Made by a program: the position numbers and the translations under genes. A DNA stretch of 64,000 nucleotides from Halopiger xanaduensis SH-6 (GTDB lineage: Archaea; Halobacteriota; Halobacteria; Halobacteriales; Natrialbaceae): the NCBI RefSeq assembly GCF_000217715.1, contig NC_015667.1:1-64000 (forward strand), in the 5' to 3' direction. This document shows positions 10,801 to 35,912 of the stretch, one piece after another; position 1 is the first letter of the stretch, and each line of letters opens with the position of its first letter. Under the pieces are notes generated by a model. That model was given only the letters and a program-made list of their open reading frames with translations. It ran no database searches and had not been told where the DNA came from.

Positions 10801-11661
10801 GAAGAGAAGGAGAAAGACGCGGATAACATTGATTCGCTGTTTGGAAATATGGGGTCCGTAGAGTCAGAAGAGTCAGCCACAGAAGAGAAGACGAACGCCG
10901 TCGACGAAAACGGATCGTCGCCAGTACAGGCAGATGGCGTAACCGTCTCCGATGACGAGCTCCGACGGCGCGGGCTCACTCACGACGACATCCGGTTCTT
11001 GACTCGCGTCCTTGATGTGATGAACAGGGACGCACCGAATCACGGACTCTTGGATTCAATGAGTGCGTTCAAGGACGACTTTGATAACTTGGACGTACAG
11101 CGGCTCATCGACCAGAACCTGCTGGAAGAAGGACGAGCCTGTAGTCGGAAGTACTACACCGTCCTTCCGGCAGGGCGTGAACTGCTCGGCCAGAAGCTCA
11201 AAGTCGGCCCTGGTCAGGGAGATATCGGCGAGAAGACGCCGCACAAGGTCGGTGTGAAGCTGCTCGAACTATGGTTAGAAGCGCGCAACGACGTCGTGCA
11301 GGTCGAACCCTACTATGAATACGACGAGGAGACGGTGTTCGACGTCGCCGCCTTCGACGCTGACGGAGAACTCATGTGGGTCGGTGAAGCAGAACTCCCG
11401 AGCAACAACAAACATGCGCCGGTCGACGACTACGACAAGCAGAGTGCGGTGGACGCAAACGCTGTCTGGGCATTCAATAGACGCGAGACAGCCGTTGAGG
11501 TGTTGGATCGGCTCGCGGAAGCTGACCGGATAGAAAACAATGTGAGTGGGCGTGCAGCCCGTCGCTTTTCGGATATTCGGGAAGCCGTCGAATCGTTCGA
11601 CGCAGAGGGGATGACGACGATTCGGAGCTTCAACAAGCTCGATGAGGGGTTCAATCCATGA
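7855..11661 (+). CDS. VirD4/HerA-like coupling ATPase with nuclease-like tail
   Basis: This 1268-residue protein is the probable coupling ATPase. It has a long N-terminal region, Walker A STGAGKS (about 506-512), a downstream VDPKGD strand as in TraD/VirD4 proteins, and Walker B LIIEEA with E779-E780. After a low-complexity linker (about 900-1030) comes a winged-helix-like segment (about 1039-1112). A final domain contains D1163, then GEAEL with E1178 and E1180 and a later lysine, which resembles the D-(x)n-E-x-E/K core of PD-(D/E)xK nucleases. ATG 7855 overlaps the preceding stop. The upstream in-frame extension to 7552 is arginine-rich and is a shadow of the VirB4-like gene. Confidence 0.75.
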   Translation: MAEYLRVTPTSERLDPESIPRILDSLHKLTTPDSSGLGAKLNPLRSETPLRFEFLAISDGPDEPVEFFYGADAHLDTLEKRLRSIYPATFDIERVDVDVAARLIQPVEFTPQEFVEHYEAGELQYEFGSAEQYDHLDEEPADFESADADPVVDGGTISTAIPDHHVIAGESVLELATPETLPEDKEKPPIEKPTMTPDGMILARPAPGAVSPLGVRWCGSASRKQDWMTSLTPFTVEETNGDLSSVDQPGAALASLIDHLMEATAPTAFQVVFQRRSSWQSDAEVRKEDLVDGRDTFFQEVVGSLLEVEEQRSDQDERQLSEAVEKRIKSIDAKNAKRSFTVNIRAIGVPTDDTRDDLDGRMDSLLPVFDPLDGPFYEVEGKRLRDSGFREKTKEKKARAALQRLLNRGLTTGRGKTRPELVLCGTELANFVLVPSSEQLTVEGIRGTRAEQQSRNPLPCPNPDLIQQFQEGMAIGYALDENGEPRSDPIRIPPDLLTTHYGRFASTGAGKSKAIINDALSLRETTGGPVVIVDPKGDGMCENYLRCHYDQFGGLDDVYQFRVPEILPAFSFFDIRPALEAGRNREDAIQDKVDHFHDILRMIMGREQYGQAFVANEILSYLIKALFDEEYGSDVFGLDDLFAAALQMQREQTIPPVSADNRNVEESLTRHFAKDDHRFQVSMDAVGNRLDKLREDAHLRRIFSHVPKQDDDGEYVDNRFDFREFLDEDATILFDLGDLRPEAQRAITLLLLSNLWDAVQVRRRDGKTDYENLTNLIIEEAAPVASTKLVSEQLLPQGRSFGLSMGLVMQFPGQVRNRNERAYDEVLNNIKTKLIGNISIERDLAESLAHEDLSPTDLRNRVNTLPSGEWIAQLPSPSFGKTGPAPFSVKPLPIAAGHPESDEPLSVEQEDHFETVALPRLSERTQAQYGLAETPRESETADDEGWGSRSNAGQSTSAESANPVESTQSSFIGQAASGSAADEEKEKDADNIDSLFGNMGSVESEESATEEKTNAVDENGSSPVQADGVTVSDDELRRRGLTHDDIRFLTRVLDVMNRDAPNHGLLDSMSAFKDDFDNLDVQRLIDQNLLEEGRACSRKYYTVLPAGRELLGQKLKVGPGQGDIGEKTPHKVGVKLLELWLEARNDVVQVEPYYEYDEETVFDVAAFDADGELMWVGEAELPSNNKHAPVDDYDKQSAVDANAVWAFNRRETAVEVLDRLAEADRIENNVSGRAARRFSDIREAVESFDAEGMTTIRSFNKLDEGFNP

Positions 11662-21980: not shown

Positions 21981-22015
21981 TAGAACTAAAGATGTAGTAG
22001 GCATATGTGTATCCT

Positions 22016-23425
22016 ATGTCAGAGGATTCTAAACTTAAGAAAATCTGTGTCTATGGTTTTGGCATCCTCATGTTGCTGGGAGGTCTTGGCGGCATGTTCG
22101 AAGGAGGATTAGGGTTGCTTGGCGGGCCAATTCTTATCGTCACATCTCTACTTCTAATTCCCAAAACTCGCCCACTCATCACAGATGCTATTGATTCAGC
22201 TGGTGGCCCTGACCTGAGTACAGTAGGGCGCGGTGCATTCATCGGACTCATCATTGTCGGATTTGTCGTTGGCGGGGCACTACTTCCCGCAGCCGATACA
22301 CAAGAAACGGAAGGTGTGGAAACACCACCATCACCATCTAATTCGACTGATTCTCCTGATTCTACATCTGAACCATCATCTGGCGATCTCGACTCTACAT
22401 CAGACTCATCAACAGACGAATCAACGGATTCACTAGGTTCGTCATCGGACGATTCATCAGGCACATCATCAGGAGATAGCTCGGATTCACCTTCTGAGGT
22501 CTCCAGAGACGACTCTTCTGGTGATACCACGAGTGAGTCTCCTGACGACTCTACGTCCGATTCTTCTGATCAATCTACAGATAGCGGCCAGGAAACCTCA
22601 TGGACGGTTACAGTTCTATCTGTAACAGATGGAGACACGATGGACGTTCGGATGCCTGATGGCAGCACAGACACAATCCGTCTGCTGGGCGTCGATACAC
22701 CTGAGACTAGTGCTGGGAACACAGACCCAACAGAGTGGGAAGGTATCCCGGATAACGCGGACGGACGAGAGTGGTTAGAGCAATGGGGTAGTGAAGCCAG
22801 CGAGTATGCAGAAGAGCGTCTTGCTGGCGAAGAGATATACATCGAGGTGGATGAGGAGTCCGACCGACGTGGTACGTATGATCGCCTACTCGTGTATGCA
22901 TACCAGTCTGAGTCTTCGTCAACGTCGTTCAATCTCAGACTCATCGAGAATGGATATGCACGGATGTATGATAGCCAGTTCTCACAGCGTTCAACCCACC
23001 AATCGGCAGAATCCGAGGCACAAAACAACAATGTAGGCGTCTGGGATTACTCCGGGTCCTCAAGTCCACCATCTGGCGACGGCGGCAGTCAAGACGGTGA
23101 TATCGTAGTATCAACCATCCATGCTGATGCAAATGGCAACGACCACGAGAACCTAAATGATGAGTACATCGAACTTACGAACGAGGGACGCTCGTCTGTG
23201 GATATGACTGGCTGGACTATATCTGATGATGCGGACCACACGTACCACATCCCATCTGGGTTCACACTCGATGCAGGCGAATCTGTGATTATCTACAGCG
23301 GAAGTGGATCAGATACCGATACAGAGCTATATTGGGGCTCTGGGAGCGCAATATGGAACAATAGTGGAGATACCATTATCGTGACGAACGCTGACGGCGA
23401 GACTGTCATCAACCGGGAATACTAA
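22016..23425 (+). CDS. membrane-anchored thermonuclease with lamin-tail domain
   Basis: The 469-residue protein has three parts. The N-terminus has hydrophobic helices (about 10-48 and 73-92). A long Ser/Asp linker (about 100-190) follows. Next is a staphylococcal-nuclease (SNase) domain from W196, with DGDT, IRLLGVDTPE (catalytic Arg, Asp, Glu) and RRGTYDRLLVY (second Arg). From about 362 there is a lamin-tail (LTD) beta-sandwich: EYIELTNEG, MTGWTISDD, GESVIIYSG. The topology places the nuclease outside the cell, for degrading extracellular DNA or defence at the surface. ATG 22016 is preferred to GTG 22007. The linker encoding is AT-richer than the neighbours. Confidence 0.85.
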   Translation: MSEDSKLKKICVYGFGILMLLGGLGGMFEGGLGLLGGPILIVTSLLLIPKTRPLITDAIDSAGGPDLSTVGRGAFIGLIIVGFVVGGALLPAADTQETEGVETPPSPSNSTDSPDSTSEPSSGDLDSTSDSSTDESTDSLGSSSDDSSGTSSGDSSDSPSEVSRDDSSGDTTSESPDDSTSDSSDQSTDSGQETSWTVTVLSVTDGDTMDVRMPDGSTDTIRLLGVDTPETSAGNTDPTEWEGIPDNADGREWLEQWGSEASEYAEERLAGEEIYIEVDEESDRRGTYDRLLVYAYQSESSSTSFNLRLIENGYARMYDSQFSQRSTHQSAESEAQNNNVGVWDYSGSSSPPSGDGGSQDGDIVVSTIHADANGNDHENLNDEYIELTNEGRSSVDMTGWTISDDADHTYHIPSGFTLDAGESVIIYSGSGSDTDTELYWGSGSAIWNNSGDTIIVTNADGETVINREY

Positions 23426-25594: not shown

Positions 25595-26455
25595 ATGTCT
25601 AGTAAGAACTCGAGTAGCAAGGTCGTTACGGTCGATGAACAGGCATTCGAACATGCGGACGATCAGGCGGTCGATGAAGGCCGCTTCCCGGTCGTCGACG
25701 AGACGCCGGAGTTCGAGGCGACGGTGGAGCAGGAGACGCAAGCAAAAGTAGATGCGAACCACCCAGACGGGATCGCAGACACCAGTGGAGATCGGATCCA
25801 CGGCGCAACCCTGGCCCAAGAGGAGCGCATTCGGGCTCGAGAGGACGAACTCGAGCGAATCAGTGCCCAAGCCGAGCTCGGGCAGCAGGATGGTCGGGCG
25901 TGGCGCACCCGGAAGAAGGTCAACGAAATGCGTCGCGACGAGCAGACGGACACACGGGCCGATCCTCGAGCAAAACTCGAACAGGAGACGCTAGCAGAGG
26001 TCAATCAATTCGCGCAACGGTTGGCGGACGACGTCAACAGTAGCTACACACGAGCCGTCATCGCGAAGCGCATCGCCAGTCGGATCCTCGAGGGTGCAGA
26101 GCTGTTCGAGGCAGTCATGGAGACAAAAGACGAGATGCTGAACGAAGCCGGAACGATCGTTCCGATCGGGCAACTCGAGGATGTCGATCGTGGCGAGGTC
26201 AGCGTTGAAGGTCGCATCATCGAACTGTGGGAACCTGCCTGTCCCAGTCAGCAGCAGGTCGGGTTGATCGAAGACGATAGCGGGAGGACGAAGCTGACGA
26301 ATTGGAAGGCCTCTCGGGCACCGTGGATCAAAGAAGGTGAGCGCGTGCGCATTCACGGGGCAGCGAAAAACTGGTACGAGGGACGCGTCTCACTGGCAAT
26401 CACCGGGTGGACTACGATCCACTTCCCGGAGCGTGACCGCTGGTGGGAAGCGTAG
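25595..26455 (+). CDS. OB-fold ssDNA-binding (RPA-like) protein
   Basis: The 286-residue protein has an acidic, helical N-terminal two thirds and a C-terminal OB-type domain: GEVSVEGRIIELWEP, VGLIEDDSGRTKLTNW, and then VRIHGAAKNWYEGRVSLAIT with a final aromatic FPERDRWWEA. These are the strand pattern and terminal motif of haloarchaeal replication-protein-A-like proteins on plasmids. It probably binds single-stranded DNA in replication or transfer. A decayed copy of the last 40 codons is at 27811-27939, and a 52-nt 3'-flank repeat is shared by both. Confidence 0.65.
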   Translation: MSSKNSSSKVVTVDEQAFEHADDQAVDEGRFPVVDETPEFEATVEQETQAKVDANHPDGIADTSGDRIHGATLAQEERIRAREDELERISAQAELGQQDGRAWRTRKKVNEMRRDEQTDTRADPRAKLEQETLAEVNQFAQRLADDVNSSYTRAVIAKRIASRILEGAELFEAVMETKDEMLNEAGTIVPIGQLEDVDRGEVSVEGRIIELWEPACPSQQQVGLIEDDSGRTKLTNWKASRAPWIKEGERVRIHGAAKNWYEGRVSLAITGWTTIHFPERDRWWEA

Positions 26456-26516
26456 CCATCGTGTCTCCCCTTCATTTTTGCTGTGCGCCGGACCGACCCG
26501 AACCCCGCCACCCCAC

Positions 26517-26568
26517 CCTCCGCTCCGTGCTCGCTCTCTCCAGTCGCTGTGCGCGCAGCCACAACCTC
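26517..26568 (+). repeat. 3'-flank repeat of RPA-like gene, copy 1
   Basis: The 52-nt segment beginning CCTCCGCTCCGTGCTCGCTC and ending ACAACCTC is nearly repeated at 28000-28051. T-runs just before both copies (about 26473-26478 and 27955-27961) look like archaeal terminators. A similar T-run and GC-rich flank follow the gene ending at 56747. Confidence 0.55.
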
Positions 26569-27810: not shown

Positions 27811-27939
27811 GAGGTCAGAGAGGGTGACCGGGTCCGGTTCAGGGCCGCGGCGAAGAACTGGTACAACGGTCGGTGTTCGATCGCGCTCACCCGGTGGTCG
27901 GAAGTCCAGTTCCCAGAGCGCGACCGGTGGTGGGAGTAG
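27811..27939 (+). pseudogene. 3' fragment of RPA-like gene
   Basis: The plus frame EVREGDRVRF, RAAAKNWYNGR, CSIALTRW and VQFPERDRWWE followed by TAG aligns with the last 40 residues of the 25595 protein. No start or upstream OB strands remain. With the 3'-flank repeat at 28000-28051 it marks a second, truncated copy of the whole module. Confidence 0.65.
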
Positions 27940-27999
27940 CCGGTCGTCGTCCCCTTTTTTTGATTGGAGCCGGACCTACCCAACCCCCGCCGCCCCTGC

Positions 28000-28051
28000 C
28001 CTCCGCTCCGTGCTCGCTCCCTACGGTCGCTGCGCGCGCAGCAACGACCTC
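28000..28051 (+). repeat. 3'-flank repeat of RPA-like gene, copy 2
   Basis: Second copy of the 52-nt segment at 26517-26568, with the same position relative to the end of the (here truncated) RPA-like frame. About 1483 nt separate the copies, with the HNH gene inside. Confidence 0.55.
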
Positions 28052-28527: not shown

Positions 28528-30186
28528 TCAGCGGGCGTCTGGATTTTCAACGCGCAGATCGGGATCTTCACCCGTATCGAGATCGACATAGTCGCCAAGC
28601 CCGACCGTCCGGGCCTTCTCGCAGTCGTCTTTACAGCGGGTACGCCGGTTGCCGTCCGTCGTCAGCCACTTCATCTCGCCCGTACTCGGTCGGTAGATCT
28701 GACGCCCCGCAAACGTCGACGTTGATGTCCCGACGATGAGCGCATGGAATCGCTCCATCATCAGCGACGCCACCATGCCGTTCGTCGTCACAACGCTCGG
28801 GTCACGCAGCTCGTCGCTGCCGTCGTCGGCCTCGCCGGGCTCCCGCTGCACGTAGAGTCCACCGTTGTCAGCCCTGTCTCGCGGCGGCTGGCGATCCCGG
28901 ACGACGCCGGAACTCCGGTCGCCCTGCTTCCACGCCTCAAGGCAGTGGAGACACGCTAGGCCCGGGCCTGCGGTCTCGACTGTGGACCGCGCGCCCGATG
29001 CGAGTTCGTCCGTCTCCTCGTTGACGCGGAGGTGCGTCCCGCCTGAGATAACGGGAATGAGGTGGGCGTACGCCAGGCGGTCGATGACTTTCTGGACCCA
29101 GTGGGGGTCTGCAGCGTTCAGAATCACGTCGCAGTCTAGGAGCGCGCCGAGCGCGCTGTAGTCGTCGTTCCCGCGCTCGACGACGCTCCCGTGAACCGCT
29201 CGCGCCTGAAAGCCAGGCGCGGTCGCGGCCTTCTCCGCGATGTCACGGGCGAGCTCGGCCTTCCGGACGTTCGACCGGGCGTCCTCGGGAGACGCACCGT
29301 AGGCGCGGTTCAGGTTTGCCTCCTTGAGGTGGTCGAAGTCGACGAACACGGCGCCGCCGACGCCGAGCCGTGCGACCTGCTCGGCGAGCAGCGACCCGAC
29401 ACCGCCACACCCGACGACGGCAACGCGGATACCGCTGAGCCGGGCCTGCCCACGCTCACCCCACAATTCCAGCGTGCTGTCATGGGCGACTGTGCCGGTC
29501 CCGAGGCCGGGACCGGCCGGGCCCTGTGCGCTGAACGCGGTCGAGAGCTTCTCGAGATACGGCCCATCCCTAACCCTCTCGATCGGGGAGGCACCGAGGA
29601 CGCGGATGGCGGTCGCCTCCGTCCTCTGCGGCGGTGTGCCAGCGGTGAAGTCGTAGGCGCGGAAGCTCCACTCCGGCTCCACGGTTTCCCGCCGCGGCCG
29701 GCTAGCGATGATGCCGGCGCCGAATGGGCGGTCGGCGCCCAGGAACTCGGCGTCGGACTCCAGCCGCATCGGATCGGCCTCCAAGTCTGGCTTGGAGGGG
29801 TACGCGCTCCATCCGGGGTGGGAGTGGAAGTATGCGATGCCCTTCCGCGGGTCGTGCTCGATGGTATCTTTCGCTCGCGCCCTGTACGCCGGGCTAAGCT
29901 TCAGACTCCCGTCGCGGATGTGGACATCGTCGTCGGTCTCCGGGGGGATGACGTCCTCAACGATGTACGTGACCCGGGAGTCGCCGGTGCTACGCGTGAG
30001 CGTCGCGATCACGCCCTGCTCGTAGCGGTCGGGCTGGTACTCCGATCCCTCCGGCTCCCGGTCGGCGTACTCCGGTCGGAGGTGGCCGTACAGCGTCTGC
30101 TTGACGTCCTGGGTGATGGCGACGTGGAACTCCTCGGCCTCCCGAATGGGGTACGACTCGGGGAGCGCGTCGTCGCGTCCGCTCAT
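28528..30186 (-). CDS. JAB peptidase-E1 activating enzyme fusion
   Basis: The 552-residue protein fuses two enzymes of ubiquitin-like systems. Residues about 15-180 form a JAB/MPN metalloprotease with an exact JAMM motif: E77, HSHP (H121, H123), then S131 and D134. Residues about 250-480 form a ThiF/E1 adenylating domain: VVGCGGVGS (259-265), VDFD (283-285), and NLNR (291-294). Two cysteine pairs (CLHC, RCKDDC) may hold zinc or provide the thioester cysteine. It would process, adenylate and pass on the ubiquitin-like protein of the same operon. It overlaps the E2-like gene by ATGA. Confidence 0.85.
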   Translation of the reverse strand: MSGRDDALPESYPIREAEEFHVAITQDVKQTLYGHLRPEYADREPEGSEYQPDRYEQGVIATLTRSTGDSRVTYIVEDVIPPETDDDVHIRDGSLKLSPAYRARAKDTIEHDPRKGIAYFHSHPGWSAYPSKPDLEADPMRLESDAEFLGADRPFGAGIIASRPRRETVEPEWSFRAYDFTAGTPPQRTEATAIRVLGASPIERVRDGPYLEKLSTAFSAQGPAGPGLGTGTVAHDSTLELWGERGQARLSGIRVAVVGCGGVGSLLAEQVARLGVGGAVFVDFDHLKEANLNRAYGASPEDARSNVRKAELARDIAEKAATAPGFQARAVHGSVVERGNDDYSALGALLDCDVILNAADPHWVQKVIDRLAYAHLIPVISGGTHLRVNEETDELASGARSTVETAGPGLACLHCLEAWKQGDRSSGVVRDRQPPRDRADNGGLYVQREPGEADDGSDELRDPSVVTTNGMVASLMMERFHALIVGTSTSTFAGRQIYRPSTGEMKWLTTDGNRRTRCKDDCEKARTVGLGDYVDLDTGEDPDLRVENPDAR

Positions 30187-30767
30187 GCTGCCCCCTCTGC
30201 TCCGTCCAGCCGCAGGAGGTACTGCACGATGCTGTGGGCGTCGGCGAGGTCACGCATCTGTTCGGGCTGGCGGTTCATCTTCGACCACCGCCAACTGAAC
30301 GCTATCGCGCTTTCCTCGTCAGCGACCTCTAGAACCTTTTCGACCTTGTCGTAGTGGCTGTCGCTCGGCTTGGTGAACGTATTACGGCACTGGATGACGC
30401 CGGCGTCCTGATCGTCGACGGTGACGGCGGGCGTCATCATCATCCAGTGCGGGTCACTGCCGTCGAACGACTGGTCGACGAGGATGTAGAGTTCCGCGGT
30501 GGGGTCGTCCCACCGCTCGCTGTACGCGTGAAGCTCGTACTCGCCGAGCCAGATGAGCGCCTGGTTGCCGTACGTCTCCACGACGGTCGGCTGCCCGTGC
30601 TCACTGTCGCGCTCGCGCTGGAGAGCGTGCATGGCGCCCTGGAAGTCGTCGTCCAGATCCTCATCCGGGACGGTGGCCGGCGGTAGCGGGCACGACTTGT
30701 TGTAGTTACCCCCGTGCCCGCCGCCGTCGCCCACTTCCGTGGTGGTCTGGTCTTCGTCGACGGCCAT
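30183..30767 (-). CDS. E2-like conjugating protein (Prok-E2 type)
   Basis: The 194-residue protein fits prokaryotic E2-like proteins found beside E1-JAB genes: a strand-rich core (HAYSERWDDPTAELYILVDQ), a proline/tryptophan-rich turn (PHWMMMTPAVTV), a cysteine after it (QCRNTF) and a late helix around FSWRWSKMNRQPEQM. The family assignment comes from this pattern and gene order rather than a fully conserved motif. It starts 1 nt after the stop of the ubiquitin-like gene and overlaps the JAB-E1 gene, so the three are co-translated. Confidence 0.65.
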   Translation of the reverse strand: MAVDEDQTTTEVGDGGGHGGNYNKSCPLPPATVPDEDLDDDFQGAMHALQRERDSEHGQPTVVETYGNQALIWLGEYELHAYSERWDDPTAELYILVDQSFDGSDPHWMMMTPAVTVDDQDAGVIQCRNTFTKPSDSHYDKVEKVLEVADEESAIAFSWRWSKMNRQPEQMRDLADAHSIVQYLLRLDGAEGAA

Positions 30768-30768
30768 G

Positions 30769-31338
30769 TTAGGAGTTACCCGGAGTGCGGGGCTCGCTGT
30801 TGAACCGTTCGACGCCGGGGTCGCTGAGGTCCACCTCGTCGTCGCCGCTGTAGGTGTTCTCAGTCCCGACCTCGACGAGTGCGTCGTCGGTATTCTTGCC
30901 GAACCGGCCGAGGATGGTCTCGGCGGTCGGGGTTGCCTCGTCGAAGAACTCGATCGGCTCGTTGTCGACCTTCACGCCGTAGCGGTCGCGAGCGTCGACG
31001 GCGCGGTCCTCGATGGTCTCGATGGTGTCCTCGAGGTCCTCGACCTCGCGGAAGAGGTCGGGGTCGGCACCGCCGGTCGCGAGCGTCTCCTGCAGGTCGT
31101 TGATGTCGTCCTGCGCGGCTTGGACGTCCGATTCAAAGCCATCAGGAAGCGACCCGTCGGCGTGCTTTACAGCGTCTTCCAGGACCTCCACGTCGTCCTC
31201 GACAGTCTCGAGGTTGACGAGGGCGTTCGCGGGAATGTCTTCTTCGACGGACTCGATGATGTCCTGGCCGCTCTGAATGGACTCAGCGAGGTCGTCGAGA
31301 TCTGTACCTTCGGTCGAACCGTTGTGATTTCCGCTCAT
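30769..31338 (-). CDS. coiled-coil ubiquitin-like protein (multi-ubiquitin domain)
   Basis: The 189-residue protein has an acidic coiled-coil N-terminal two thirds (about 12-118) and a C-terminal beta-grasp domain (about 119-180): YGVKVDNEPIEF, then PTAETILGRFG, typical of the multi-ubiquitin domain of prokaryotic conjugation operons. Only one domain copy is present, and the end (RTPGNS) lacks a terminal Gly-Gly. ATG 31338 is supported by an AGGAGC Shine-Dalgarno (31345-31350 on the complement, 6 nt away). The in-frame extension to 31389 is basic and dismissed. It is the probable modifier of the operon. Confidence 0.7.
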   Translation of the reverse strand: MSGNHNGSTEGTDLDDLAESIQSGQDIIESVEEDIPANALVNLETVEDDVEVLEDAVKHADGSLPDGFESDVQAAQDDINDLQETLATGGADPDLFREVEDLEDTIETIEDRAVDARDRYGVKVDNEPIEFFDEATPTAETILGRFGKNTDDALVEVGTENTYSGDDEVDLSDPGVERFNSEPRTPGNS

Positions 31339-31573
31339 GTTTGAGCTCCTGTCTCCTTTGACCCGGAGACATTGGGCCGACCGGGGCACTGCATTCGCCG
31401 CTATGACAGTCCCTTCTGCGGGTTCGCGAGTGACGGAGTAGTCACTCGGAACCCGTAGTAGAACGGGTCCGATTGAGGGGCGGGCACGTACCGGTCATCG
31501 CCGTCGCTCGACTCGCGTTCCGGTCGTGGTTATTCCCGCCGACCTCCTCCCGCGGAGTCGCGGTGAGCGGAGG

Positions 31574-31900
31574 TTGCCAGTGGAACGGTGGGTAACCAAC
31601 CCAGTTACGGGTAGGGGTGTCTGCATTAAAAATCTTTCGTGGATACTTAAAAGTTCACCAAATGGGAATTAGAAGTGGGTTAGGCAGAAAACCGACCCCC
31701 GGGTAGCCCTGTTTGGGTCCCAGAGGATGCTGAGTAATACTTTTACTTTCACTCCGGTACCGGAAGGGTTTTTATACTTGTTCCGAGCCGGATTGGCACG
31801 GAGTGAAAGTGTCTGATTCACGAACCAAAAACGGCAGCTCAGCTACTCAACTCGGGGTCTGGTGGGGAAAACAACAATCGCCCCACCGTTCCACTGGCAA
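31574..31900. repeat. 19-bp perfect terminal inverted repeat, 327-bp element
   Basis: TTGCCAGTGGAACGGTGGG (31574-31592) is repeated as its exact complement at 31882-31900. The 327-bp unit has no ORF. The ends resemble the termini of a miniature transposable element, but no target-site duplication is evident and no related copy occurs in the window, so an operator or structural role is equally possible. Confidence 0.5.
31745..31810. repeat. 12-bp inverted repeat inside the 327-bp unit
   Basis: ACTTTCACTCCG (31745-31756) and CGGAGTGAAAGT (31799-31810) are exact complements 42 nt apart, with a TATA-like TTTTTATACTTG between them. This arrangement suits a pair of operator half-sites flanking a promoter. 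Confidence 0.5.
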
Positions 31901-32121: not shown

Positions 32122-33270
32122 CTAACTAAAGTCAGTAAGTCGTTGATTTTGGGGTTTAAACTCAATTTCATACTCTTCCTTAAATCCTCGATCTGAATCA
32201 CCTCGGTCAACTCTAATCTTATCTTTTGTTTCAAGGGTTTCCAAGGCACTACGACAGTGTGGTTCAACGAGGTCCGTTCGACGATACGTGTATTTGAGGA
32301 GATCCCCGAAAGTTACCGTTGACCCATCGTATACGTCTAAAAGTCGTTCTCGGAGCTCTTTCACGCGAATGTCTTCGGAGGCAGTAGCTTCGAAGAGATT
32401 AGTTTGCTCATCTTCATACCCATAGTGGTCAGACCCTAAATAAGCGAAATTATCATCATCCCCCTCATTGAACATGACATCTTTCATAACTTTAAATCCC
32501 TTAAAATGATTTGTAGCATGAATTAGATAATATAAAGTGACATCTTTATCAGGGTGTTTCATTTGGAAGGGGAACACGTATTCCACATCTGCATCCGACT
32601 TCAGTTGCGATACGTATAATTTCAATATTTCCTCTTCTTGCTTTTTCCGATCCGAATACTGCCGAATGTCCTTCCAGTCATCAGATCCGAAGGCTCGTGT
32701 TATGGTTTCCGCTTTCTCGTTATCATTTAAGAAGCGACGGATTTTATCGACCATGAAATTAAAGAAGACCTCATTACCACTTTCTTGGATATTCATAATT
32801 TTAGAGATGATATTGAATGGAGTACCAGAATAACCGAAGGGATCAATGAAAACCATACTGGGGAGGTCAGAATAAGCATCCGACTCTAGAACAGGTAGTG
32901 CGATCTCCTCAAACTTCTCATTGAAACAGGTATGCTTGATCTTATTTTCGTTTTCGCATCCTTTAACTTTCTTATCCGTTTCATCTTTCAGAATCTCGTA
33001 ATTATCAAAATCATAGTCGTTGAATGTACAGTGGAAAGTATCAAAAACATCGCCATTTCGATCTGCTACATCAATCGCGAGAAGAGGAGAGCCAGGTTCA
33101 CCATCTTCATATCTCGCTCGACCCGCGAAGCCATCAAAATAGTGGACTTCTGGATTCGCGCTGCTCACAATGCGAGTCCAAGTTGTCAAGTATTTCCTGA
33201 GGATCCGATGTTTCACTTCGGTATGCTCCTTCATGTGCCATTTCTCAGGATCAGAATCGTCAAGAGGCAT
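32122..33270 (-). CDS. tcmP: TcmP-like three-Cys-motif partner protein
   Basis: The 382-residue protein matches TcmP: WHMKEHTEVKHRILRKYL, YFDGFAGRARYEDGEPGSP (the glycine-rich SAM-binding-like loop), FIDPFGYSG (an [N/D]PF-type motif) and a helical C-terminal part. TcmP proteins are methyltransferase-like and are named for occurring next to radical SAM proteins with the three-Cys CxxxCxxC motif; exactly such a gene lies 106 nt upstream. The gene is markedly AT-rich compared with the flanks, indicating transfer. Substrate unknown. Confidence 0.75.
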   Translation of the reverse strand: MPLDDSDPEKWHMKEHTEVKHRILRKYLTTWTRIVSSANPEVHYFDGFAGRARYEDGEPGSPLLAIDVADRNGDVFDTFHCTFNDYDFDNYEILKDETDKKVKGCENENKIKHTCFNEKFEEIALPVLESDAYSDLPSMVFIDPFGYSGTPFNIISKIMNIQESGNEVFFNFMVDKIRRFLNDNEKAETITRAFGSDDWKDIRQYSDRKKQEEEILKLYVSQLKSDADVEYVFPFQMKHPDKDVTLYYLIHATNHFKGFKVMKDVMFNEGDDDNFAYLGSDHYGYEDEQTNLFEATASEDIRVKELRERLLDVYDGSTVTFGDLLKYTYRRTDLVEPHCRSALETLETKDKIRVDRGDSDRGFKEEYEIEFKPQNQRLTDFS

Positions 33271-33376
33271 ACTGGTGGAAAGGTATTACCTGTAGATACA
33301 GGGAGTAGGTATATGATTCTGTTGGGAAAAAGGAATTAATTGTACCAATACCAAAATAGGATACGACAGTTCTGAC

Positions 33377-34426
33377 TTACTCCACTTGAACAGGACACGT
33401 CGGTGGTGCTGTAGAAGGCGTCTCCCGCTCCGCAAATTCCTCTGGTGACTGCCGATCGCGCCACGATTGTAACCACACCTGCTCTTCATCAGAAACGTGC
33501 TTTATCAACTGTTTATCCGGCCACAGATGCACCGGCAACCCTAGCTCATGACCGATATCCTGGACCCACTGCAGATGATTCGTCGCGTATTCAACCCACC
33601 GCTCACGGTCACGGAGTTGGTCTAACTCCTCTGCCAATTCCTTTTGACCTGCATCTCGAGCGGCCTGTACAGTCATTTCGAAGTTCCCACCACGGGGATT
33701 GATTGGTTCGTGGAAGACAACTGCTGGATCACACTCCGCCAAACGCTCAAGTTGCTCACGAAGGTCATCCTTGTTCTGCGTTGGATAGGTTGGACTCATA
33801 CTCACGAACGTCTGCACCCCATGTTCGTTGAATTCTTTGAGTCCGCGAAGACGGTGTTCCGGTGCTGGGGCATTCGGTTCGATAGCAGCTACTTGATCGG
33901 CATTCATACAAGGGATTGACGAGCCAATCGTGACGTATTCACCACCCTCGATAAATACATCCACATCCTGAAGTGCAAGAATTGGATTTCGCGTTAGAAC
34001 GCGCGTGTACTTCTCGTGGCTCGTAAGTGCCTGAACAACGTTACGCGTAATTTTTCCTGCCTTTCCATCCATATAGCAATCGGTAGAAAAGGAAACACCA
34101 ACGACACCGCGACCACGTCTCGTTTTGTTCCACTTCCGCTTACGATCGAGATGTGCGTCAAGTCGCTCGCCAAGTCCATGTCGGTAGAGGACATAACTCC
34201 CCCACTCTTTCTGGCCGTTCTCCACATCCACCTCTTTCTCAAGCATATCTGGGCGGGTACGGATGTTCGGCGTTGACGGGACGTAACAGAATTTGCACCC
34301 GTGCCGACAGCCAGTGGCAACGTTAACGACGTAGTCACAGAGATGCTTGCTGTTAAGTCCAGATTCACTGAGGATCGCCTTCGTTGGGTCGTCCCCAGTT
34401 CGTACTTCGTCGTAATCCTCAGACAT
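33377..34426 (-). CDS. radical SAM protein, TcmP partner type
   Basis: The 349-residue protein is a radical SAM enzyme: CRHGCKFCYVP gives the CxxxCxxC cluster (C40, C44, C47). Downstream strands (GVSFSTDCYMDG, VLTRNPIL, TIGSSIP, VSMSPTYP, VVFHEPINPRGGN) follow the barrel of the Gp37/Gp68-like three-Cys family related to spore photoproduct lyase. Its partner tcmP-like gene follows on the same strand. A divergent paralogue starts 139 nt away on the plus strand. A role in nucleic-acid modification or repair linked to defence is inferred. Confidence 0.75.
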   Translation of the reverse strand: MSEDYDEVRTGDDPTKAILSESGLNSKHLCDYVVNVATGCRHGCKFCYVPSTPNIRTRPDMLEKEVDVENGQKEWGSYVLYRHGLGERLDAHLDRKRKWNKTRRGRGVVGVSFSTDCYMDGKAGKITRNVVQALTSHEKYTRVLTRNPILALQDVDVFIEGGEYVTIGSSIPCMNADQVAAIEPNAPAPEHRLRGLKEFNEHGVQTFVSMSPTYPTQNKDDLREQLERLAECDPAVVFHEPINPRGGNFEMTVQAARDAGQKELAEELDQLRDRERWVEYATNHLQWVQDIGHELGLPVHLWPDKQLIKHVSDEEQVWLQSWRDRQSPEEFAERETPSTAPPTCPVQVE

Positions 34427-34565
34427 TATTGTAATATGGAAATACTATCACTCGGCGCACAAAATTCTTGCTAGTCAATAGTGGTTTCTCTTCTATTTTC
34501 ACTTTCACTATACTAGGCTCACTCCCTTTGGGTTACGAATAGAACACTAAGACGAGGCGATTCAT
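34427..34565. promoter_or_regulatory. divergent promoter region between radical SAM genes
   Basis: The 139-nt AT-rich spacer separates two start codons facing away from each other (34426 on minus, 34566 on plus). TTTTCACTTTCACTATACTAG (about 34495-34516) contains a TATA-like part toward the plus gene; TTCACTTTCAC resembles the half-site found at 31745. Confidence 0.4.
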
Positions 34566-35912
34566 ATGGAGCTTACTTGGGAAGCGGGCGACAGTTGGTT
34601 CGAACGAACATATGCTGTGGAGAACGATGACAATCAGACAGTCGAAACGCTCGGAAGCCAGCCGACCCTCAACGAGCTCCGTAAAATTGAGCGCCAATAC
34701 GGCGATCCGACTGAACGATTAGATCTGTGGCAAGCAGGCCTTCTCTGTGCTGACTGTAGTAGTGAGATCAACGATCGGTTCGCGGCCAATCCAGCAGGAG
34801 AGATTCTTTGTTGGGATTGTGCGATGGACACTGACAGTACAACGCAAAACGGGCTCCGTGTCAATACTGATCCGACGAAATCGGTGATGAGCGAGTCTCA
34901 TCTTCATACAAAGAGTCTCTGTGATCACGTTATCAATGTCGCAACCGGTTGCCGTCATGGGTGCGAGTTCTGCTACGTACCAACAACCCCAGCAATTGAC
35001 AACCGAGACGGAATGCTCACGGACCAAGCCGATGTCAATGACCCACAGATTGACTGGGGCAGTTATCTACTGTATCGCGACGATCTACCGGAACGACTCC
35101 ACCAAGTCCTTGAGAATCGTGATCCGAGTGAACGAAAGCAAACAAAACGAGGACGCGGTATTGTTATGCTCTCAAGCGGCACCGACTGTTACCAAGATCG
35201 TCGAACTGCTCAGATCACGCGAGGCGTTGTGACTGAACTTATAACTCACGACATTCCGGTGCGGATCCTCAGTCGTAGCCCAGCGCTTGTTCGCGATATT
35301 GATCTCTTCCGAGTAGCTGGCGACCGCATTACAGTTGGGTCATCGATTCCGTCATTTGAGGCGCCACTTGTCAAGGCGATGGAACCAAACGCTTCACCGC
35401 CGATCAAGCGCTGGGAAGCTCTTGATCAACTCCAGCAGGCAGGTGTGCCAGTCTTTGTCTCAATGTCACCAACGTATCCAACGATGGATGAAGACGACTT
35501 CCACGAGCTACTAAGCTACTTCCGAGCGCTGGGAGAGATCGTTGTCTTCCATGAACCAATCAACCCTCGTGGAAAGAACTTCCAGCAGTGTCTAGAAGCA
35601 GCTTCTGACTCCGGCTACGATGAAGTTGCTGCAGAACTCCAACAAATGCGTGACGACCGTCAGTACTGGGTCGAGTACGCACTCGAACAACTAAATACGG
35701 TCCAACAAGTGGCAACACGGTTTGACGGACTACACGTCCACTCATGGCCTGACGATGAACTCATTCGATCGACGAGCGGACAACTGCAATCAAAACTCAA
35801 GGCGATGCAACAAGCCGTTTCACCGGAGTCGTTTGGGCCGATTAAACCAGAAAGTCAATCATCCCAGTCTGAACTATTGGAGAGTCACCAGTCGTTCCAA
35901 CAACTAATATAG
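34566..35912 (+). CDS. radical SAM protein with N-terminal zinc-binding extension
   Basis: The 448-residue paralogue of the minus-strand radical SAM protein has the cluster CRHGCEFCYVP (C129, C133, C136) and the same barrel landmarks (MLSSGTDCYQDRR, RILSRSPAL, TVGSSIPSF, VSMSPTYP, VVFHEPINPRGKN). It adds about 90 N-terminal residues holding two cysteine pairs (C61, C64, C82, C85), a probable zinc ribbon. The C-terminal 30 residues are Gln/Ser-rich. It is transcribed away from the other copy, so two related enzymes surround a shared control region. Confidence 0.75.
   Translation: MELTWEAGDSWFERTYAVENDDNQTVETLGSQPTLNELRKIERQYGDPTERLDLWQAGLLCADCSSEINDRFAANPAGEILCWDCAMDTDSTTQNGLRVNTDPTKSVMSESHLHTKSLCDHVINVATGCRHGCEFCYVPTTPAIDNRDGMLTDQADVNDPQIDWGSYLLYRDDLPERLHQVLENRDPSERKQTKRGRGIVMLSSGTDCYQDRRTAQITRGVVTELITHDIPVRILSRSPALVRDIDLFRVAGDRITVGSSIPSFEAPLVKAMEPNASPPIKRWEALDQLQQAGVPVFVSMSPTYPTMDEDDFHELLSYFRALGEIVVFHEPINPRGKNFQQCLEAASDSGYDEVAAELQQMRDDRQYWVEYALEQLNTVQQVATRFDGLHVHSWPDDELIRSTSGQLQSKLKAMQQAVSPESFGPIKPESQSSQSELLESHQSFQQLI

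Follow-up and report, generated by a model that had tools for sequence, protein, structure and literature searches.

A probable Bub-like ubiquitin conjugation cassette with a folded leader region in the haloarchaeon Halopiger xanaduensis SH-6

What does a haloarchaeon do with an operon that encodes a ubiquitin-like protein (Ubl), an E2-like protein and a JAMM-E1 fusion, when the Ubl does not end in Gly-Gly? The question is raised by three genes, here called A, B and CD, within a window of 64,000 nucleotides of Halopiger xanaduensis SH-6 DNA. The window is the start of a contig of 181,778 bases in a genome of 4.36 Mb, and the contig is likely a large plasmid since it carries conjugation-type genes (TrbL/VirB6, a TraG-like P-loop protein and HerA). 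A preliminary description of this DNA assigned three ORFs to a single archaeal operon, as genes for a Ubl, an E2-like protein and a JAB-E1 fusion, with a 1-nt gap between A and B and an ATGA overlap between B and CD, and the ORF coordinates bear this out (Table 1). The span of the operon should be drawn further, to about 31632, taking in the leader and TATA-like box described below. The three genes probably form a mobile cassette encoding a Bub-like Ubl conjugation pathway.

Table 1. Positions of the cassette genes, proposed key residues and upstream elements in the window
Feature	Position	Strand	Basis
Gene A: Ubl precursor, 189 aa	30769..31338	-	ORF
Gene B: E2-like protein, 194 aa	30183..30767	-	ORF; BubB-family match
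Gene CD: fusion of N-terminal JAMM protease and E1 adenylation domain, 552 aa	28528..30186	-	
Ser158 of B: proposed nucleophile, E2 active-site position	30294..30296	-	Sole invariant column, n = 14 E2s; aligned on BubB serine
Gly187 of A: proposed C-terminus after loss of Asn-Ser	30778..30780	-	13 homologue tails; BubA end in PDB
Conserved, strongly folding 5' region	31339..31605	-	Fold z, DNA similarity, paired changes
TATA-like box (TTTTTAAT) upstream of leader	31625..31632	-	Sequence only

The best PDB match of CD is Citrobacter BubCD (E 4e-15). In Pfam, CD matches ThiF (PF00899) at 9e-29 and Prok-JAB at 7e-4, the latter below the cut-off. The JAMM residues are E56, H121, H123, S131 and D134. 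The last four are those named in the preliminary description, but its choice of E77 as the glutamate is ruled out, as that column varies among homologues whereas E56 is invariant in the rows that align. D134 aligns with D104 of BubCD, a residue that is mutated in PDB entries. The nucleotide motif of the E1 half is intact, as had been claimed: the glycine motif, R294 and K309 are all present, and the latter two correspond to MoeB residues named in PMC12355090. Of the cysteines in the E1, those kept throughout the family form two zinc-type pairs (412/415/518/522), with one more in LLDCD; the crossover loop contains no cysteine in the CD alignment, and the same loop is without Cys in BubCD. At two loci (L013 and L031) the second JAMM histidine is replaced by Gln (HTQ) and the Ubl tail after the Gly is kept (DGGKIAYE and DGGKIA); the JAMM protease may be altered there.

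B was checked by profile and AlphaFold, as had been proposed. A 14-row profile of B matches the BubB family in hhalign (95%, E 3e-8) and places Ser158 on the serine of the BubB WS motif, which we take to be the catalytic residue of Bub. In a 10-row E2 alignment the archaeal serine is offset by two columns from the bacterial serine, so that the superposition of the two serines rests on hhalign. Ser158 is the only invariant column in the alignment of 14 E2s; the E2s of L004–L011 have zero cysteines, and neither of the two cysteines in B of the window is conserved. No match was returned by a Pfam search with B or by a PDB sequence search with the E2 profile. An AlphaFold model of B from 3 rows (pLDDT 55) gave an uninformative fold search, and a model from 10 rows is also poor (pLDDT 57.5). 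Searched against 350,542 PDB chains, the 10-row model has BubB (9eae_C) as its top structure match, with prob 0.82, an rmsd of 2.0 over 54 columns and an E value of 0.42, which is not significant; this first place for BubB is supportive of the assignment, short of proof. The invariant Ser158, the cysteine-free E2s and an E1 without a crossover-loop cysteine suggest E2-serine oxyester chemistry. Other haloarchaeal Ubl/E2/E1 operons occur at L020–L023, L025 and L028 and at L018 and L019; they include E2s with a Cys motif (YCIH, WCVH) and a second serine-type group (FSWH).

The A protein has an acidic helical, coiled-coil-like region (about residues 1–115) and a single beta-grasp-like domain (about residues 118–189), in agreement with the single Ubl domain first described. 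The stalk is not universal, as A is short in L006, L009, L012, L015, L016 and L042. The C-terminal part matches Pfam Multi_ubiq weakly (E 0.05), and the three best PDB matches to a 13-row profile of the domain include multi-ubiquitin/BubA chains, also weakly (best E 0.029). All 13 aligned homologues end in a Gly and a tail of 2–5 residues, with ends such as PGNS (window), GSGRS, GGGNS, PGGYI, DGGKIAYE and GGGGFS, and the last residue of Citrobacter BubA in the PDB is Gly229. Given that every homologous Ubl ends this way, the missing terminal Gly-Gly would most simply mark a precursor for trimming by the JAMM protease. Of the alternative mode of processing or conjugation suggested in the preliminary description, the first half is not needed, since processing can be ordinary, with JAMM cutting off the few residues behind a single Gly, and this fits all the homologues, but conjugation is probably unusual, with Ser in the E2 active-site position and no thioester cysteine in the E1. 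Some distant bacterial relatives (L043–L046, L049 and L050) have Ubls that end in DDNS and lack the Gly, and their E2s carry an LSRR motif; these Ubl ends suit the trimming model badly.

By homology, bacterial Bub operons are the relatives of this haloarchaeal cassette. The cassette shares with the Citrobacter system (BubA, BubB and BubCD; PDB 9ea4, 9ea5, 9ea8, 9eae and 9eav) a JAMM-E1 fusion, a separate E2-like protein with a conserved serine, a plasmid-borne setting and an E1 that lacks the thioester cysteine of the crossover loop; its Ubl may be of the BubA/multi-ubiquitin type, at the weak match values above. It differs in its archaeal host, in having one Ubl domain, set on a coiled-coil-like stalk, where the bacterial Ubl has tandem domains, in unfused A and B and in its folded leader. 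Bub reportedly works via an E2-serine oxyester, in work attributed to Ye et al. 2026. The Bil (bacterial ISG15-like) defence operons likewise combine Ubl, E2, E1 and JAMM protease in one operon. Bil uses catalytic cysteines, including a cysteine-based E2, and separate genes, whereas the cassette has no conserved E2 cysteine and several homologues are cysteine-free. CBASS Cap2/Cap3 has an E1-E2 fusion beside a nucleotide cyclase; here the E1 is fused to JAMM and the E2 is separate, and no cyclase was found among the neighbours scanned. An archaeal Ubl, E1 and JAMM protease are also found in the haloarchaeal SAMP/UbaA/HvJAMM1 system, in which, to our knowledge, the SAMPs have a Gly-Gly end and no dedicated E2. 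The cassette E1 (P0003) scores 28.7 bits against the UbaA family, with a cut-off of 450, and is not a member of it. The UbaA of the host is encoded on another contig (C3), and the cassette would therefore be a separate pathway. The preliminary description linked similar bacterial operons to phage defence. Many bacterial Bub operons occur with CapW, CapH+CapP or CapK+CapS, and phage protection has not been demonstrated for Bub operons (PMC13373217). No conserved regulator gene adjoins the cassette in 18 neighbourhoods.

The cassette was at first called unusual, which holds in part: about 4% of the genomes sampled from the order carry it. An E1 match was found in 28 of 392, and the full-length type in at least 16. 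It occurs in at least 11 haloarchaeal plasmid records, and the annotated plasmid neighbourhoods show two small hypothetical genes and then a ThiF-family gene. In 16 of the 18 neighbourhoods the gene immediately upstream of the E1 is a B homologue, and the same three genes are present in a Thermoplasmata MAG (L042); the arrangement is therefore not chance. Beyond A, B and CD, no gene recurs in most of the 18. The stretch of similar DNA shared with a chromosomal copy in genome G343 begins at 28530 and breaks off at 31602, which would give the limits of the mobile unit. In the E1 tree the archaeal sequences fall together (93/95), with a Mycobacteroides sequence beside them on a long branch whose placement is unsure. 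No relative was found in the viral contigs searched, and four matches in a phage collection, which cover less than one third of the query, seem to be ThiF domains with no relation to it. At L093, the same place as L017 and L041, a second, broken CD copy (about 10977–11634; ~80% identical to that of the window) sits next to a divergent cassette of that genome, which is intact.

Other genes and repeats surround the cassette in the window. Two copies of a ~150-nt repeat (26416–26567 and 27881–28050) flank an HNH/zinc-finger gene, possibly as a small mobile element, and copies of it also lie near the cassettes in L036 and L088. On the other side, at 32122–35912, a TcmP gene (three-Cys-motif partner; a match to PADLOC candidate PDC-M30A) adjoins two radical SAM genes, and these are possible defence neighbours. 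An SNase plus lamin-tail-domain protein is encoded at 22007–23425, with a PADLOC SNc+LTD match.

Gene order, homology, the conservation of residues and leader and the folding of the leader are observations, from which we infer the target, the role and every reaction step. In the proposed cycle, the JAMM half of CD would cut the Asn-Ser tail off A and expose Gly187, which the E1 half would adenylate. Because the E1 is without a thioester cysteine, the Ubl would be handed directly to Ser158 of B, forming an oxyester, before it goes to an amine on a target. The JAMM protease may also take the tag off, and the coiled-coil part of A would render the tag bulky or oligomeric. The role would most likely be a plasmid-carried defence or stress response.

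The weak sequence matches of A and B count against a Bub-like pathway, and an E1 without a thioester cysteine is MoeB/ThiF-like. Both this E1 and the weak E2 score of B would suit adenylation without conjugation, in which A is activated to carry sulfur or to serve some other small-molecule purpose, with B acting as a scaffold or binding partner instead of as an E2. That explanation is unlikely, given that the 18 neighbourhoods show no recurring sulfurtransferase or cofactor gene, that B has BubB homology and an invariant serine, and that a dedicated JAMM protease suits a reversible tag. The same set of parts, Ubl, E2, E1 and JAMM protease, could also belong to a Cys-dependent Bil-type defence pathway that looks different through divergence only. 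This is very improbable: the lack of any conserved cysteine in the E2s, several of which are cysteine-free, contradicts it; B has Ser where the Cys-type haloarchaeal E2s of L022, L023, L025 and L028 have Cys (read by eye); and the E1, joined to JAMM in one protein, has BubCD as its best PDB match.

The region upstream of A is probably an mRNA leader of ~265 nt, and in 9 of 11 homologous loci TATA-like boxes lie 250–297 nt ahead of the ATG. About 277 nt upstream of A are similar at the DNA level to L089 (76%) and L086 (70%), and in part to L090 and L034; five cassettes have the leader in common, and two further cassettes weakly. In L086 the genes are better conserved than the leader (unit 83% vs leader 70%). 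The leader of L089 is better conserved than its genes, because the blastn match to the coding region is a 148-nt piece only. The leader of the window has a fold z of -4.6. In 75 control windows the mean z is -0.25 and the minimum -2.5; of 17 leaders, seven lie below that minimum, and two further ones have a z of about -2.3 to -2.4. A coding role is unlikely, as there are stops in most frames, with one open frame in L089. Rfam holds no match to the leader. When a covariance model of the leader was run on 12 whole genomes, the only strong matches were the sequences from which it was built. Outside the model, L035 gives a weak match (E 0.003 over 388 kb) and L037, in a targeted search, a weak match to the 3' part. 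L033 and L092 do not match the model, and L092 and L093 have folding leaders of their own.

The folded leader probably controls expression of A. In a five-row alignment 18 pairs are changed on both sides, a count that none of 500 shuffles reaches and that slid controls do not approach (at most 7). The RNAalifold covariation term is about zero, and the antisense strand folds nearly as well (column-shuffle z -5.4 vs -6.1). Together with the mobility of the unit, these last two results would also be expected of a DNA-level element, such as protein-binding palindromes or a recombination site. We regard such an element as possible, the lesser possibility, because the leader lies between a TATA-like box and the ATG, its pair counts exceed both sets of controls and, in L035 and L037, the match to the model stops precisely at the ATG. 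A broader proposal is made tentatively: that the structured RNA leader controls, or is physically used by, archaeal Bub cassettes, sensing infection or stress and setting the output of the coiled-coil Ubl, which would make the cassette an RNA-regulated, cysteine-free Ubl system.

The cassette looks to extend the recently described bacterial Bub system into archaea. Should the proposed pathway hold, serine-based, cysteine-free Ubl conjugation reaches from bacteria into Halobacteria and Thermoplasmata, a spread that bears on the evolution of ubiquitin chemistry. In Haloferax volcanii, 72% of protein-coding transcripts are leaderless (PMC4983044). Leaders are absent from most mRNAs of this host group, and the folded one upstream of A offers a candidate control element that is concrete and can be tested. 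Furthermore, Haloferax volcanii and similar hosts are genetically tractable and have a SAMP pathway of their own, so that both pathways could be compared in one cell.
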